The notes below the pieces were generated by a model that ran no database searches, was not told where the DNA came from, and was given only the letters and a program-made list of their open reading frames with translations. A stretch of 23,304 bases of DNA, taken from positions 1 through 23,304 of the IMG/VR virus record IMGVR_UViG_3300021425_000198; one strand, written 5' to 3'. The position numbers were made by a program, and so were the translations under genes. Position 1 is the first letter of the stretch. Every line of letters begins with the position of its first letter. This document shows positions 3,173 through 22,590 of the stretch, piece after piece. Origin of the DNA: a virus.

Positions 3173-3517
3173 TTATGCTACAGAAATCGCTTCGAAACCG
3201 AAGTCTGCGCAAATGTAATATTCATGATCACCGGTGTGACACTCGATGATGTCGCCAACACTCATTGAGTGCATAGGCATGAAACGACGAAGCTTTTGAT
3301 TGAGCTCGTCACGAATAGCCTCATCGGTTACGAAGCCGAGGCGGTTGCTGATGTCAAACACTTCTTCCATATCGTTAGCTTCAACACGAGCAACAGGATT
3401 GAAGAATTGAAAGTCTTCAGGCTGAAAGCGATCTGAGTTGAAAGACAAACGATAGAACGCGTCAAGATTTGTATCTGGAAGGTCGCGATCTAGCTGGTGG
3501 ATAGTGAATGTTGCCAT
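3173..3517 (-). CDS. YodL-like domain phage protein (114 aa)
   Basis: A 114-residue protein. Its C-terminal half carries the pattern MHSMSVGDIIEC, a short turn, YYICADFGFEAI, which resembles the YodL-like domain (H-S-x-S-V-G-D followed by Y-x-x-x-x-x-G-F). The N-terminal half resembles the two-domain proteins seen in phages and plasmids that pair this element with a numeric or residue-range strand. The molecular function of this family is not established. It is the first gene downstream of promoter cassette A and is therefore probably expressed early and strongly. Confidence 0.75.
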   Translation of the reverse strand: MATFTIHQLDRDLPDTNLDAFYRLSFNSDRFQPEDFQFFNPVARVEANDMEEVFDISNRLGFVTDEAIRDELNQKLRRFMPMHSMSVGDIIECHTGDHEYYICADFGFEAISVA

Positions 3518-3552: not shown

Positions 3553-3646
3553 ATTATACTACACTGAGTGTAGATGTACATCTCTAAGTTATTGATTTAT
3601 AAAGACTTTCTGAGCACTTGCAAGTCGTTGATTTGTAAAGACTTTT
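3553..3646 (-). promoter_or_regulatory. promoter cassette A with two 36-nt spaced upstream units
   Basis: On the minus strand a perfect TATAAT -10 (plus 3553-3558) sits 17 bases from an ATGTAC -35-like hexamer (3576-3581). Directly upstream lie two copies of a unit centred on AAATCA (3593-3598 and 3629-3634), exactly 36 bases apart. Each copy is preceded by AAAGTCTTTA and followed by an ACTT block. The cassette drives the 114-residue YodL-like gene leftward. The same arrangement recurs at 4402-4496 and 22493-22590. Confidence 0.75.
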
Positions 3647-3679
3647 TCAATAACTTTTTTCACTTTTTCTTAGACTTTT

Positions 3680-4401: not shown

Positions 4402-4496
4402 ATTATATCAAGTGGTTGCAGGAAAGTACAACTCTAAGTTATTGATTTCATTAGAGTTTTTAAAGAGTTGCAAGTCTATGATTTATAAAGACTTTT
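4402..4496 (-). promoter_or_regulatory. promoter cassette B with two 36-nt spaced upstream units
   Basis: The minus-strand -10 TATAAT (plus 4402-4407) is 18 bases from a TTGTAC -35-like hexamer (4426-4431). Two upstream AAATCA-centred units (4443-4448 and 4479-4484) are again exactly 36 bases apart, with the proximal one flanked by CTCTAA and TTAGAG as an inverted repeat. It drives the 219-residue coiled-coil gene. The 10-base stretch between -35 and spacer (TTTCCTG) is shared with cassette C. Confidence 0.75.
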
Positions 4497-4527: not shown

Positions 4528-5214
4528 TTAGTATATTTTTTCCCACTGACTAATGTTGCCAGTGTAATCAGAATATGCTGCATAAAAGTTTAGATTGCAT
4601 GCTGCGGTGATACGTACACCATCAGAATCAATAGGTGATACCGAATGTTCTAACCAGCCGGGAAAGAGGACGATCGTGCCGTCTTCTGGCTTGTGTTCGT
4701 ATACTTTAGACTCATCATCCATGTAGAAGAATGTGCTGGCTAGCTGTGTATTCTCTACGTAGAGCACTGATGTGAGACTGGTAGGATGGTTGTGTCGTTC
4801 GTTAATACTTGTTTTGTCTGACCAATTAAGCCACCACGAAGACTCCTGATTCTGTGGATGACTTGACATGAGTAGTTGACCTTTACTCCATGCATCCTGA
4901 AAATCACAGAAGCCAAACTCAGCTAAGAAGTGAGATGCGAGTGCAGTAATATAATGCAAGGAAAAGCCATCATTCAGACGATGCTTTGGAATAGATGCTT
5001 GGCCAAGATTCTGACCAACATTAAGATGATACTTTAGTTTGCCTAAGTCAGGATGAAACATCTGCTTTTCGAGTCTGCGTGCCTCATCAATAAATTCCTG
5101 ATGCACAACAGGATGCAGCTTTCCTTTTAGTATTGGAAAGCCATCAATCCATTCGTATTCTGAGAAAAGCTGTCGAATAGATCCTTCAACAGTCGGTATC
5201 ATTTTAAGTTGCAT
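4528..5214 (-). CDS. 2OG-Fe(II) oxygenase family protein (first copy)
   Basis: A 228-residue protein started at ATG 5214 (MQLKMIP), chosen because GAGGA lies five bases upstream; longer in-frame starts up to 5253 lie inside the upstream gene. Likely Fe(II)-binding residues are H141 and H143 in ERHNHP and H190 in WLEHSV; R201 in VRITAACN would bind 2-oxoglutarate. The block GTIVLFPGWLEHSV is typical of the phage/bacterial putative 2OG-Fe(II) oxygenase family (TIGR02466-like). Such enzymes use O2 and 2-oxoglutarate to hydroxylate a substrate, giving succinate and CO2. The substrate is unknown. It overlaps the upstream DUF3310-like gene by 11 bases. Confidence 0.85.
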   Translation of the reverse strand: MQLKMIPTVEGSIRQLFSEYEWIDGFPILKGKLHPVVHQEFIDEARRLEKQMFHPDLGKLKYHLNVGQNLGQASIPKHRLNDGFSLHYITALASHFLAEFGFCDFQDAWSKGQLLMSSHPQNQESSWWLNWSDKTSINERHNHPTSLTSVLYVENTQLASTFFYMDDESKVYEHKPEDGTIVLFPGWLEHSVSPIDSDGVRITAACNLNFYAAYSDYTGNISQWEKIY

Positions 5215-5488
5215 TATGTTCCTCGTCATGGATATAAAGTTGAAACAATGCATAGTGCATTACTTTAATGAGGTCCTTACGCCACTCGTCAGGCGTATCG
5301 CCTTTCTCACCATATCTGTCTTTGTACTTTTGTAGATTACCCATGCAGAAACCTGTACCATGACCATCACGAATGATCGATTCCAATGTTTGCTTACCAT
5401 TCTTGGAATAGTGTTGATCATATGTCGAGTCAATGTATGCCATGAACTCACTGAGTAATTCATTCTCTCTAAATTTGTATTCAATCAT
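5204..5488 (-). CDS. DUF3310-like nucleotide kinase/SaV-type protein
   Basis: A 94-residue protein with the pattern YYSKNG-like (HYSKNGKQTLESI), GFCMGNLQKYKDRYGEKG and a final helix (DLIKVMHYALFQLYIHDEE). That order, a substrate-like H-Y, then G-N-x-x-K-Y, a basic glycine turn and a D-L-x-K helix, matches the DUF3310 family of short phage proteins. Its biochemical role is not settled. ATG 5488 overlaps the end of the upstream oxygenase gene by 8 bases, so translation is probably coupled. Confidence 0.75.
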   Translation of the reverse strand: MIEYKFRENELLSEFMAYIDSTYDQHYSKNGKQTLESIIRDGHGTGFCMGNLQKYKDRYGEKGDTPDEWRKDLIKVMHYALFQLYIHDEEHNAT

Positions 5489-6068
5489 TTGCGATACCCA
5501 CTATATTATATAAATTTTCTGGATCGTCATAACATCTTTGTATGTCATCGACTGCAGGATACGAGTTACCACTCACAGAGATTCTTGCTTTATCACTGTT
5601 GTTTTTGTAAGTGAAGTGTGGTATCCAATCTGGAAATACGACTAGCATACCAGTCTCTGGTGTGATATCTCGATGCACTGACTTCTTACCAACATTCAAA
5701 ACAAATCCAAGATCACCTGAATTTTCTGGCACGTCGACATAATATACCCATGATAGCTGTGTGATTGGCAGCTCTCGATTGGTATGAGTATGCATCATTG
5801 TCTGCTCACGTGGTTCAATGATATGCGACCACTTTGTCCATGTAATAAACTTCGAATGCACATTCTCTTGTATGTAATGATCGATGAGATCTACTAATGC
5901 TTCACACTCAGGTGTGTCTGGATAATCGCTGTCTTCATTGAATGTGTGTTTCTCATCAGTGTATTGCTTCTTATCTTTGAGCGCATAAATCTGTTCAGCC
6001 AACACCTTATTGTCGACATCAGGTATCATTGTTGTGAGTGTACTACACAGGAAAATTGGTTCTAGCAT
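5481..6068 (-). CDS. 2OG-Fe(II) oxygenase family protein (second copy)
   Basis: A 195-residue protein. H93 and H95 in MMHTHTN, H151 in DWIPHFTY and R162 in KARISVSGN are the expected Fe(II) and 2-oxoglutarate ligands on a double-stranded beta-helix (SWVYYVDVP, GMLVVFPDW). Here the usual H-x-D is H-x-H, as in the other two copies of this window. Start ATG 6068 has GAGGTAAG upstream. It is only distantly similar to the copy at 4528-5214, sharing the core pattern but not the flanks, so they are separate family members and not a recent duplication. Substrate unknown. Confidence 0.85.
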   Translation of the reverse strand: MLEPIFLCSTLTTMIPDVDNKVLAEQIYALKDKKQYTDEKHTFNEDSDYPDTPECEALVDLIDHYIQENVHSKFITWTKWSHIIEPREQTMMHTHTNRELPITQLSWVYYVDVPENSGDLGFVLNVGKKSVHRDITPETGMLVVFPDWIPHFTYKNNSDKARISVSGNSYPAVDDIQRCYDDPENLYNIVGIAND

Positions 6069-19115: not shown

Positions 19116-19806
19116 TATAATCTTTCACTATGTTTGAAAAGTATTCTCCAATATATGTTGATTGATTTGCAATGAGTGGAAACAAATCATATATGGTGAC
19201 TATCTCTTGTCGAATGAAAACATCAGCTGGTCTAATACCATTTTTTACATCAGCTAATAATAATTTTGCACCTGCTGGCGACAGAATATATGCATGTGCA
19301 CCGAATAAATTAATGTTGTCACAATCACATTTATCATTTGTAATATTCATAACGTTATGATCATAGTTGCAGTCGAGCCGGCGCTTTAACTCTCTGCGTT
19401 TTATGATTGACTTTTTCTGTCTACCATTTGGTGTGCCCCAATTTGGTATGCCAAGATTAAGAACATGACCGTGAAACATCTCAATAGCTGTCATATCCGG
19501 ATCGTTTAAGAATGCAGCATCATCCTCGAGAATGAGCATATTCTCAAAACCTTTGGCACACTCTTCCCAGCATTGTTTATGAGAAAGAAAGGTTGCCACT
19601 TCAGCAGCTATATCTAGTCGACCTTCACTGCCGTGTTGTCCACCAAAATACGGTAGCAACTTGTGTTTAGAAATATCGACGTCATCTTTCCATACACCAG
19701 CAGACAATTCTACATTCTTAAAATAATCCAACATCTTTTCTTTTAATGCTGTTGCTGCTTTTACACTTTTTTCAGATTGTTCTACGTATATAATTCTAGT
19801 CTGCAC
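19108..19806 (-). CDS. GT25 family glycosyltransferase
   Basis: A 232-residue protein. GTG 19806 is chosen (start MQTRIIYVEQSEKSV) with GGAAG eight bases upstream; longer in-frame readings have no ribosome binding site and lie inside the upstream oxygenase gene. It has the N-terminal strand RIIYVEQSE, ILEDDAAF (92-99) with the expected acidic metal-binding pair, and YILSPAGAKLLL near the C-terminal third. This is the glycosyltransferase family 25 (LPS biosynthesis type) pattern. It overlaps the upstream oxygenase by 11 bases and the downstream methyltransferase by 8. Probable role: building or decorating a surface or virion glycan. Confidence 0.85.
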   Translation of the reverse strand: MQTRIIYVEQSEKSVKAATALKEKMLDYFKNVELSAGVWKDDVDISKHKLLPYFGGQHGSEGRLDIAAEVATFLSHKQCWEECAKGFENMLILEDDAAFLNDPDMTAIEMFHGHVLNLGIPNWGTPNGRQKKSIIKRRELKRRLDCNYDHNVMNITNDKCDCDNINLFGAHAYILSPAGAKLLLADVKNGIRPADVFIRQEIVTIYDLFPLIANQSTYIGEYFSNIVKDYNV

Positions 19807-20347
19807 GTATAAAGCTTCCGTTGAATGGTAATGTGTAACGGCTATTACCGTCGTATTGTTCTGCTCTGTATTGATGAGGTACGATAGAAGGAAAGAATAC
19901 AATCTTACCCATCTTCGATGGTACGCTATACATATATTGGTCAGCTGAATAGCTCATGTTAAAGAAATCAGTAAAACCAATATCAGACAAATATAGAATG
20001 GCTGACATCATGATTCTACCATTGTATTTCTCTTGGTGATTATGCATAGGATGTGAACCAGCTGGTCCAGTATAGCATGACACCCAATAATTTTCTAACT
20101 GAAATTTGTATCCAATTGAGCTAGCTGATGCCTCTACAGCTGGAATGACATGCTCATGAAATAATGGTATGTGTATGGGATGAGCAAAATCTGTTGCATA
20201 GTCAGTAATAGGATGAGGCTGTGATGCCTCTGATATCGATCTTATTCTTGGTTCTTGTTCTTTAATGTATGCAATGATATCGATCGCAAGATTCGGATCA
20301 ATATTCATCTCATAAAACATCGTTGGAAAAACTGGAGTTTCAATCAT
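19796..20347 (-). CDS. 2OG-Fe(II) oxygenase family protein (third copy)
   Basis: A 183-residue protein with metal-ligand candidates H102 and H104 in HPMHNHQEK and H158 in SIVPHQYRA, and R170 in GNSRYTLPFN for 2-oxoglutarate. The strand pair ILYLSDIGF and GKIVFFPS is typical of the DSBH core. It starts at ATG 20347, overlapping the upstream stop as ATGA-type coupling. It heads the small GT25-methyltransferase group, so a glycan or related small-molecule substrate is possible, but no substrate can be read from sequence. Confidence 0.85.
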   Translation of the reverse strand: MIETPVFPTMFYEMNIDPNLAIDIIAYIKEQEPRIRSISEASQPHPITDYATDFAHPIHIPLFHEHVIPAVEASASSIGYKFQLENYWVSCYTGPAGSHPMHNHQEKYNGRIMMSAILYLSDIGFTDFFNMSYSADQYMYSVPSKMGKIVFFPSIVPHQYRAEQYDGNSRYTLPFNGSFIRAD

Positions 20348-22004: not shown

Positions 22005-22187
22005 TTAACCTTCCTCTCTTACATTCTGCAAAAATTCAAACGTCTCTGAGTAAGACAAGCCTGCACGCTTAGCGTCTTGCTCGAGCTCACCCCACTCAGG
22101 GTTGGGCGCATTATAAATGCGATGCTCAACACAATCGCGAAGATACTCGCCCATCTCACCTCTCATCCACCATTCAGTTACTGGCAT
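22005..22187 (-). CDS. unknown small acidic protein (60 aa)
   Basis: A 60-residue protein with ATG 22187 overlapping the upstream stop by one base (TAATG) and a strong GGAGG upstream. It is mostly acidic and helical (EMGEYLRDCVEH, AGLSYSETFEFLQNV). Function unknown. Part of the early-type operon behind promoter cassette C. Confidence 0.7.
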   Translation of the reverse strand: MPVTEWWMRGEMGEYLRDCVEHRIYNAPNPEWGELEQDAKRAGLSYSETFEFLQNVREEG

Positions 22188-22465
22188 TACGCTACCTCCT
22201 TTGGAGCAAACAATTTAGAAAAACCTTCGACCAGAAGGTTGTAAGAGTAAACCTCGTACCGCCATTCGTGGTCGAAATCGTAGTCGTCAGTCTCGAGAGC
22301 ATCAACCTCAGCTTTCGAATAACGACGCTCGAAACCTTGAAGGGCGTCAAGAGTATCGTCTGTACCCATGAAACCCTTGATGATACGAAGGGCTTGGTTG
22401 AAGTCGATACCGCTGTCCTTCATCTCTGCGATTTCACATTCTGTTTGGTAGATGATTCGTGCCAT
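22187..22465 (-). CDS. unknown small protein behind promoter cassette C (92 aa)
   Basis: A 92-residue protein with ATG 22465 and AGAGGAA upstream. It is acidic, with a Glu/Asp-rich middle (EVDALETDDYDFDHEW) and a C-terminal helix (YSYNLLVEGFSKLFAP). Family not recognised. It is the first gene driven by cassette C and so is probably transcribed early. Confidence 0.7.
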   Translation of the reverse strand: MARIIYQTECEIAEMKDSGIDFNQALRIIKGFMGTDDTLDALQGFERRYSKAEVDALETDDYDFDHEWRYEVYSYNLLVEGFSKLFAPKEVA

Positions 22466-22492: not shown

Positions 22493-22590
22493 ATTATACT
22501 ACAATGGTCAGGAAAGTACATCTCTAAGTTATTGATTTGATTAGAGTTTTTTGAGACTTGTAACTTATTGATTTCATTAGACTTTTTTGA
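22493..22590 (-). promoter_or_regulatory. promoter cassette C with two 36-nt spaced upstream units
   Basis: The minus-strand -10 TATAAT (plus 22493-22498) lies 17 bases from ATGTAC (22516-22521). AAATCA units lie at 22533-22538 and 22569-22574, again exactly 36 apart. The proximal unit is flanked by CTCTAA and TTAGAG, an inverted repeat. It drives the 92-residue gene and those behind it. Confidence 0.75.

Follow-up and report, generated by a model that had tools for sequence, protein, structure and literature searches.

The window, by which we mean the whole stretch of DNA that was analysed, is an entire IMG/VR contig of 23,304 bases, and the gp41 helicase, UvsX, family-B DNA polymerase and endonuclease VII that it encodes assign it to a T4-like phage. 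Three promoter cassettes, here called A, B and C, lie on its minus strand at 3553-3646, 4402-4496 and 22493-22590, just where an earlier note made from the sequence had placed them. The features in question are as follows, with IHF standing for integration host factor:

3173-3517, minus strand: gene A, 114 aa, with a YodL-like domain (PF14191), the first gene downstream of cassette A
3553-3558, minus strand: cassette A -10, TATAAT
3575-3580, minus strand: cassette A -35, TGTACA, with a 16 bp spacer
3585-3597, minus strand: cassette A proximal IHF-consensus unit, AATCAATAACTTA
3621-3633, minus strand: cassette A distal IHF-consensus unit, AATCAACGACTTG, 36 bp upstream
3643-3647, minus strand: A-rich run of the cassette A distal unit, AAAAA
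3706-4389, minus strand: gene B, up to 227 aa, no assigned function, the first gene downstream of cassette B
4402-4407, minus strand: cassette B -10, TATAAT
4425-4430, minus strand: cassette B -35, TGTACT, with a 17 bp spacer
4435-4447, minus strand: cassette B proximal IHF-consensus unit, AATCAATAACTTA
4471-4483, minus strand: cassette B distal unit, AATCATAGACTTG, one mismatch from WATCAANNNNTTR
22187-22465, minus strand: gene C, 92 aa, no assigned function, downstream of cassette C
22493-22498, minus strand: cassette C -10, TATAAT
22515-22520, minus strand: cassette C -35, TGTACT, with a 16 bp spacer
22525-22537, minus strand: cassette C proximal IHF-consensus unit, AATCAATAACTTA
22561-22573, minus strand: cassette C distal IHF-consensus unit, AATCAATAAGTTA
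22583-22587, minus strand: A-rich run of the cassette C distal unit

Small-gene operons follow the cassettes, and several of their first genes (gene A, gene C) are orthologous across phages: relatives of gene A in other phages are likewise found downstream of a cassette, and gene C has an 89% identical orthologue in L151 that is itself placed directly behind a tandem-unit promoter. Elsewhere in these 23 kb, three genes resemble 2OG-Fe(II) oxygenases (4528-5253, 5481-6068 and 19796-20347, minus strand), the last of which scores below the Pfam cut-off.

Read along the minus strand from the -10, each cassette comprises TATAAT, a spacer of 16-17 bp, TGTAC(A/T), four bases, a 13-base unit and, 36 bp upstream, a second unit. 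The AAATCA sequences on which the earlier note had centred its units start at 3598/3634 (A), 4448/4484 (B) and 22538/22574 (C), such that the members of each pair are exactly 36 bp apart, and the proximal unit stands at an identical distance from TGTAC in all three; both the spacing and the fixed distance to the -35 were thus correctly described. The -35 itself had been given as A/TTGTAC, with a spacer of 17-18 bases. This element is present, but its register moves one base downstream, to TGTAC(A/T) with 16-17 bp, because these phages abound in unit-less promoters that read T(G/T)TACA-N17-GTAGAAT/GTATAAT. The resulting promoters combine a good -10 with a weak -35 (TGTACW, 4/6).

What the earlier note did not contain is the identity of the units. 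Five of the six are perfect matches to WATCAANNNNTTR, the IHF consensus (PMC10380432), and the sixth departs from it by one mismatch; across the window there are 8 perfect matches to this consensus, against 2.75 +/- 1.6 expected, whilst the form AATCAANNASTTR is matched five times, every one inside the cassettes. Among 17 cassettes less than 85% identical to one another, the consensus positions of the proximal unit are invariant, with variation at the first two N positions, and the sole departure in the distal unit falls at one A position (2/17). These diverged cassettes also share an A-rich run at -14 to -10 from the W, and a run in matching register accompanies 256 other units from many phages, though it formed part of no search pattern. 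The likeness extends to the attP region of lambda, where H' carries the consensus WATCAANNNNTTR with an A-run at -14 to -9, in the same register as in the cassettes, and a second site reads AATCAACTACTTA, like the cassette units; the lambda sites (H', H1/H2), however, serve recombination rather than a promoter, and lack the 36-bp tandem spacing. Some conservation goes beyond the IHF consensus, namely the AC of NNAC, a C at -7, and TTAGAG beside the -35. These bases exceed what IHF alone would require, which is a point against an IHF-only reading.

The CTCTAA/TTAGAG arms that had been reported for B and C are indeed there, in the proximal units, yet they do not amount to a conserved inverted repeat. 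Arm pairing in the 17 diverged cassettes averages 4.12/6 against 4.01 +/- 0.08 for shuffled arms, a value reached in 138 of 1000 shuffles; since the arms do not covary, an inverted-repeat operator is unsupported, and we set this candidate aside.

Conservation in related phages bears directly on the suggestion that a spacing kept through diverged sequence marks selection, as for a bound dimer, and it speaks in its favour. An exact-pattern scan of related viral contigs returned 24 stretches, all 24 with a second unit 36 bp upstream. In a second collection, we asked only for the proximal unit and promoter, which gave 37 distinct cassettes from related IMG/VR phages: the second unit lies exactly 36 bp upstream in 36 of these, as a perfect match in 34 and with a single mismatch in 2, and at other distances from 12 to 94 none of the 37 has a perfect direct unit. 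The exception, L115, has its distal unit inverted and 37 bp away. When the spacing was left free (21-51) in a scan of the collection, 56 of 60 stretches fell at 36, the remaining four resembling one coding family. An apparent 42-bp spacing class was discarded as apparently coding sequence, as was an inverted-unit match in L630, leaving L115 as the only cassette among the inverted-unit matches.

The earlier note had proposed a position-matrix search for further copies, and relatives carry many. Our cassette profile gives 88-108 bits on nearly all copies and 84.6 on one promoter-less copy, with a maximum of -10 on shuffled contigs; as it was trained on 16 of the scored copies, these scores demonstrate coherence, not independent discovery. 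Near-complete relatives hold three to four cassettes each (three in G002, four in G007). Many cassettes share descent, so that tallies of cassettes are not independent. Bacterial genome contigs gave no match to the cassette. Blastn matches to cultured phages extend over only 22-24 bases, and we rejected these, including one to Vibrio phage 11895-B1 that is a chance half-unit. In one relative (L071, G006:20036), a two-unit array lies 290 bp upstream of an intact cassette, and its proximal unit is followed at once, without an intervening promoter, by a ribosome-binding site and an ATG (TTAGAGGAGAATACTATG).

The cassettes make up only part of the promoter repertoire of these genomes. A noncoding scan yielded 13 sigma70-like promoter candidates in G007 and 20 in G002, figures which include some cassettes, and 14 of 26 matches to the T4-type late promoter motif TATAAATA in G007 are noncoding, against 1.2 expected. 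In the window cassettes and their relatives alike, an IHF-consensus unit stands upstream of a sigma70-type promoter at a fixed 4 bp from the -35.

Does this layout extend beyond close kin? In a complementary scan, near-consensus promoters were held fixed whilst the gap to the -35 and the upstream unit were left free. Among the matches listed, a unit placed 4 bp from the -35 has a direct partner at 35-36 in 8 of 16 representatives and an inverted one at 34-36 in 2 of 16; for units at 10-24 bp, no partner distance is favoured. The phages with the layout, again among the matches listed, include distant T4-like ones such as L196 (46% polymerase identity) and L182 (55% helicase identity), as well as L132 and L260, which keep it in stretches with no detectable homologue of the six window proteins compared. 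At these distant loci, the 35-36 bp pair and the 4-bp gap persist among the matches listed, whilst the -35 and linker sequences differ. The same contrast is seen when the promoter of gene C is compared with that of the L151 orthologue: 17 of 18 consensus positions agree, against 21 of 49 others. A length fixed despite altered linkers and -35s is not readily explained by inheritance alone, so far as these comparisons go. We do not, however, regard 36 bp as a general rule for IHF-like pairs: away from promoters they take spacings from 22 to 54 bp, and the 36-bp distance is therefore specific to pairs abutting a -35. Several phages, L246, L295, L135 and L163 among others, carry at least three AAATCAANNACTTR units at 25-38 bp spacings in noncoding DNA off promoters.

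A bound IHF dimer occupies about 35 bp of DNA, which it bends by about 160 degrees. With this in mind, we think it reasonably likely that each cassette is a sigma70-type promoter on which two host IHF dimers would sit side by side, raising the use of the promoter by polymerase at a few pre-late operons. The recurrence of the paired-site layout in so many relatives suggests that the phage probably borrows the protein with which its host packages the chromosome, and does so for the control of a few genes. Two host IHF heterodimers would occupy neighbouring stretches head to tail, with cores from about -52 to -40 and from about -88 to -76, and the A-runs of the paired sites at about -66 and -102. 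As each IHF bends DNA sharply, the pair would create two adjacent sharp bends, and hence a compact bent complex ending beside the -35. Such a complex, built from a protein that the infected cell would already contain, would most likely raise or stabilise RNA polymerase at a few pre-late operons, either by touching its alpha or sigma subunit or through folding of the upstream DNA back against the enzyme. We infer the binder, the bends, the activation and the timing alike; the word 'pre-late' derives solely from the difference between the sigma70-type promoter and the TATAAATA late motif.

Could the protein be something other than IHF? An early DNA-binding protein encoded by the phage might recognise the unit pair, activating or repressing, in which case the likeness to IHF sites would be convergence. 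The bases conserved beyond the IHF consensus would suit such a protein, as would the restriction of the units to only 3-4 promoters per genome, which is what one expects of a dedicated regulator, and the phage genes include many small uncharacterised proteins. We nevertheless consider this unlikely, given that like units with the same A-run register recur in many phages with no detected relation, other spacings included, that the lambda attP site AATCAACTACTTA has the same form, and that the distal unit can be inverted with its spacing kept. The last of these fits a pseudo-symmetric bending protein, which could be placed either way round at the same centre distance. Promoters with an inverted distal IHF-like unit, its centre 34-37 bp from that of the proximal one, were seen in L115, L433, L508 and L580, among the matches listed.

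If IHF is the binder, its effect need not be activation, and repression or anti-silencing stands as the main functional alternative: IHF would bind, but repress, time the promoter, or exclude H-NS-like silencers. The proximal site overlies the region usually taken by the alpha-CTD, and an IHF dimer this near the -35 could hinder that domain, a point against activation; the pair is also confined to a subset of promoters. On the other hand, a good -10 joined to a weak -35 fits a promoter that needs help, and we hold this alternative to be a rather improbable one.

A third possibility dispenses with any additional protein. The earlier note had offered an extended UP element, in which alpha-CTDs would read phased A/T tracts, and the A-runs upstream of the -35, spaced 36 bp apart, do invite this comparison, as do the UP elements of T4 early promoters (PMC2988021). 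Here the earlier suggestion finds no support in the details. The sequence abutting the -35 (about -46 to -38) is the nearly invariant AACTTAGAG, with no A-tract; neither the invariant C of ATCAA, at an IHF-consensus position, nor the conserved C at +9 is a feature of UP elements; and the distal unit is invertible with its spacing retained, all of which makes this explanation highly improbable. Least credible of all is a recent duplication of one promoter module, with functionless units and a merely inherited spacing, for although the cassettes of one genome are clearly related and G006:20036 has units without a promoter, linkers and -35s have diverged where length and consensus bases have not, more distant phages retain the layout, and none of the 37 cassettes pairs an intact promoter with randomly spaced or decayed units.

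Returning to the IHF pair, where would the protein come from? No HU/IHF gene (PF00216) was detected in 16 phage records, which argues against a phage-coded IHF/HU and for a protein derived from the host. One clue to that host is an isocitrate lyase gene (aceA) at 1287-2525 on the minus strand of this T4-like phage; viral aceA has been reported from ocean viromes (PMC4053976). Its product is 69-70% identical to the enzymes of two marine gammaproteobacterial genomes, the next-closest being 58%, and in one of the two an apparent malate synthase gene adjoins aceA. Both genomes carry IHF alpha, and in one of them a gene resembling IHF beta scores slightly below the curated cut-off. We infer a gammaproteobacterial host, the link through aceA being indirect; IHF is mainly proteobacterial (PMC10380432). 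The unit is not clearly enriched in the candidate host genomes. Polymerase matches had pointed to a cyanophage, but we rejected this origin, as no psbA was found and the phage aceA is gammaproteobacterial-like.

Amongst known systems, T4 middle promoters, which have a MotA box (TGCTT, centre at -30) in place of a -35, resemble the cassettes in being a promoter subset with a -10 and an added upstream-type element. Unlike them, the cassettes have TGTACW at the -35, and the TGCTT box at -30 is absent from all three in the window. The lambda pL promoter is an IHF-assisted phage promoter. Host IHF also influences transcription from the Pe promoter of phage Mu (PMC3820752). Like the cassettes, both are sigma70 phage promoters with a site for host IHF on their upstream side. 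In contrast to these, the cassettes have two sites in tandem at a distance of 36 bp, with just 4 bp between the nearer site and the -35, in a module that occurs 3-4 times per T4-like phage genome and is known here from sequence alone. T4 early promoters, which use UP elements with strong -35, TGn and -10 elements (PMC2988021), are similar in being host sigma70 promoters with additional conserved upstream sequence; integration host factor has 0 occurrences in that review. IHF effects on phage promoters are thus already known, and what appears new is a double site abutting the -35, repeated and conserved across T4-like phages, of which we found no description in the literature searched, a search of limited coverage.

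These cassettes would represent a compact promoter class, recognisable by sequence in uncultured T4-like phages and dependent on a host nucleoid protein. If this is true, the availability of IHF becomes a host condition for the expression of particular phage genes, and the cassettes offer a natural test case for the effect on RNA polymerase of two neighbouring sharp bends beside a -35. It is tempting to go further and see paired IHF dimers against the -35, at 34-37 and with the distal one in either orientation, as a general architecture of environmental phages, a built-in activator that couples expression to the host nucleoid, but we put this forward only tentatively and rather doubt it. Another recurrent arrangement of IHF beside a promoter, AATCAATNACTTA..aaaacgcTTGACA, is found in many phages among the matches listed (L400-L629): there, a single IHF-consensus site with its A-run lies 8-9 bp upstream of TTGACA-N16/17-TATAAT.
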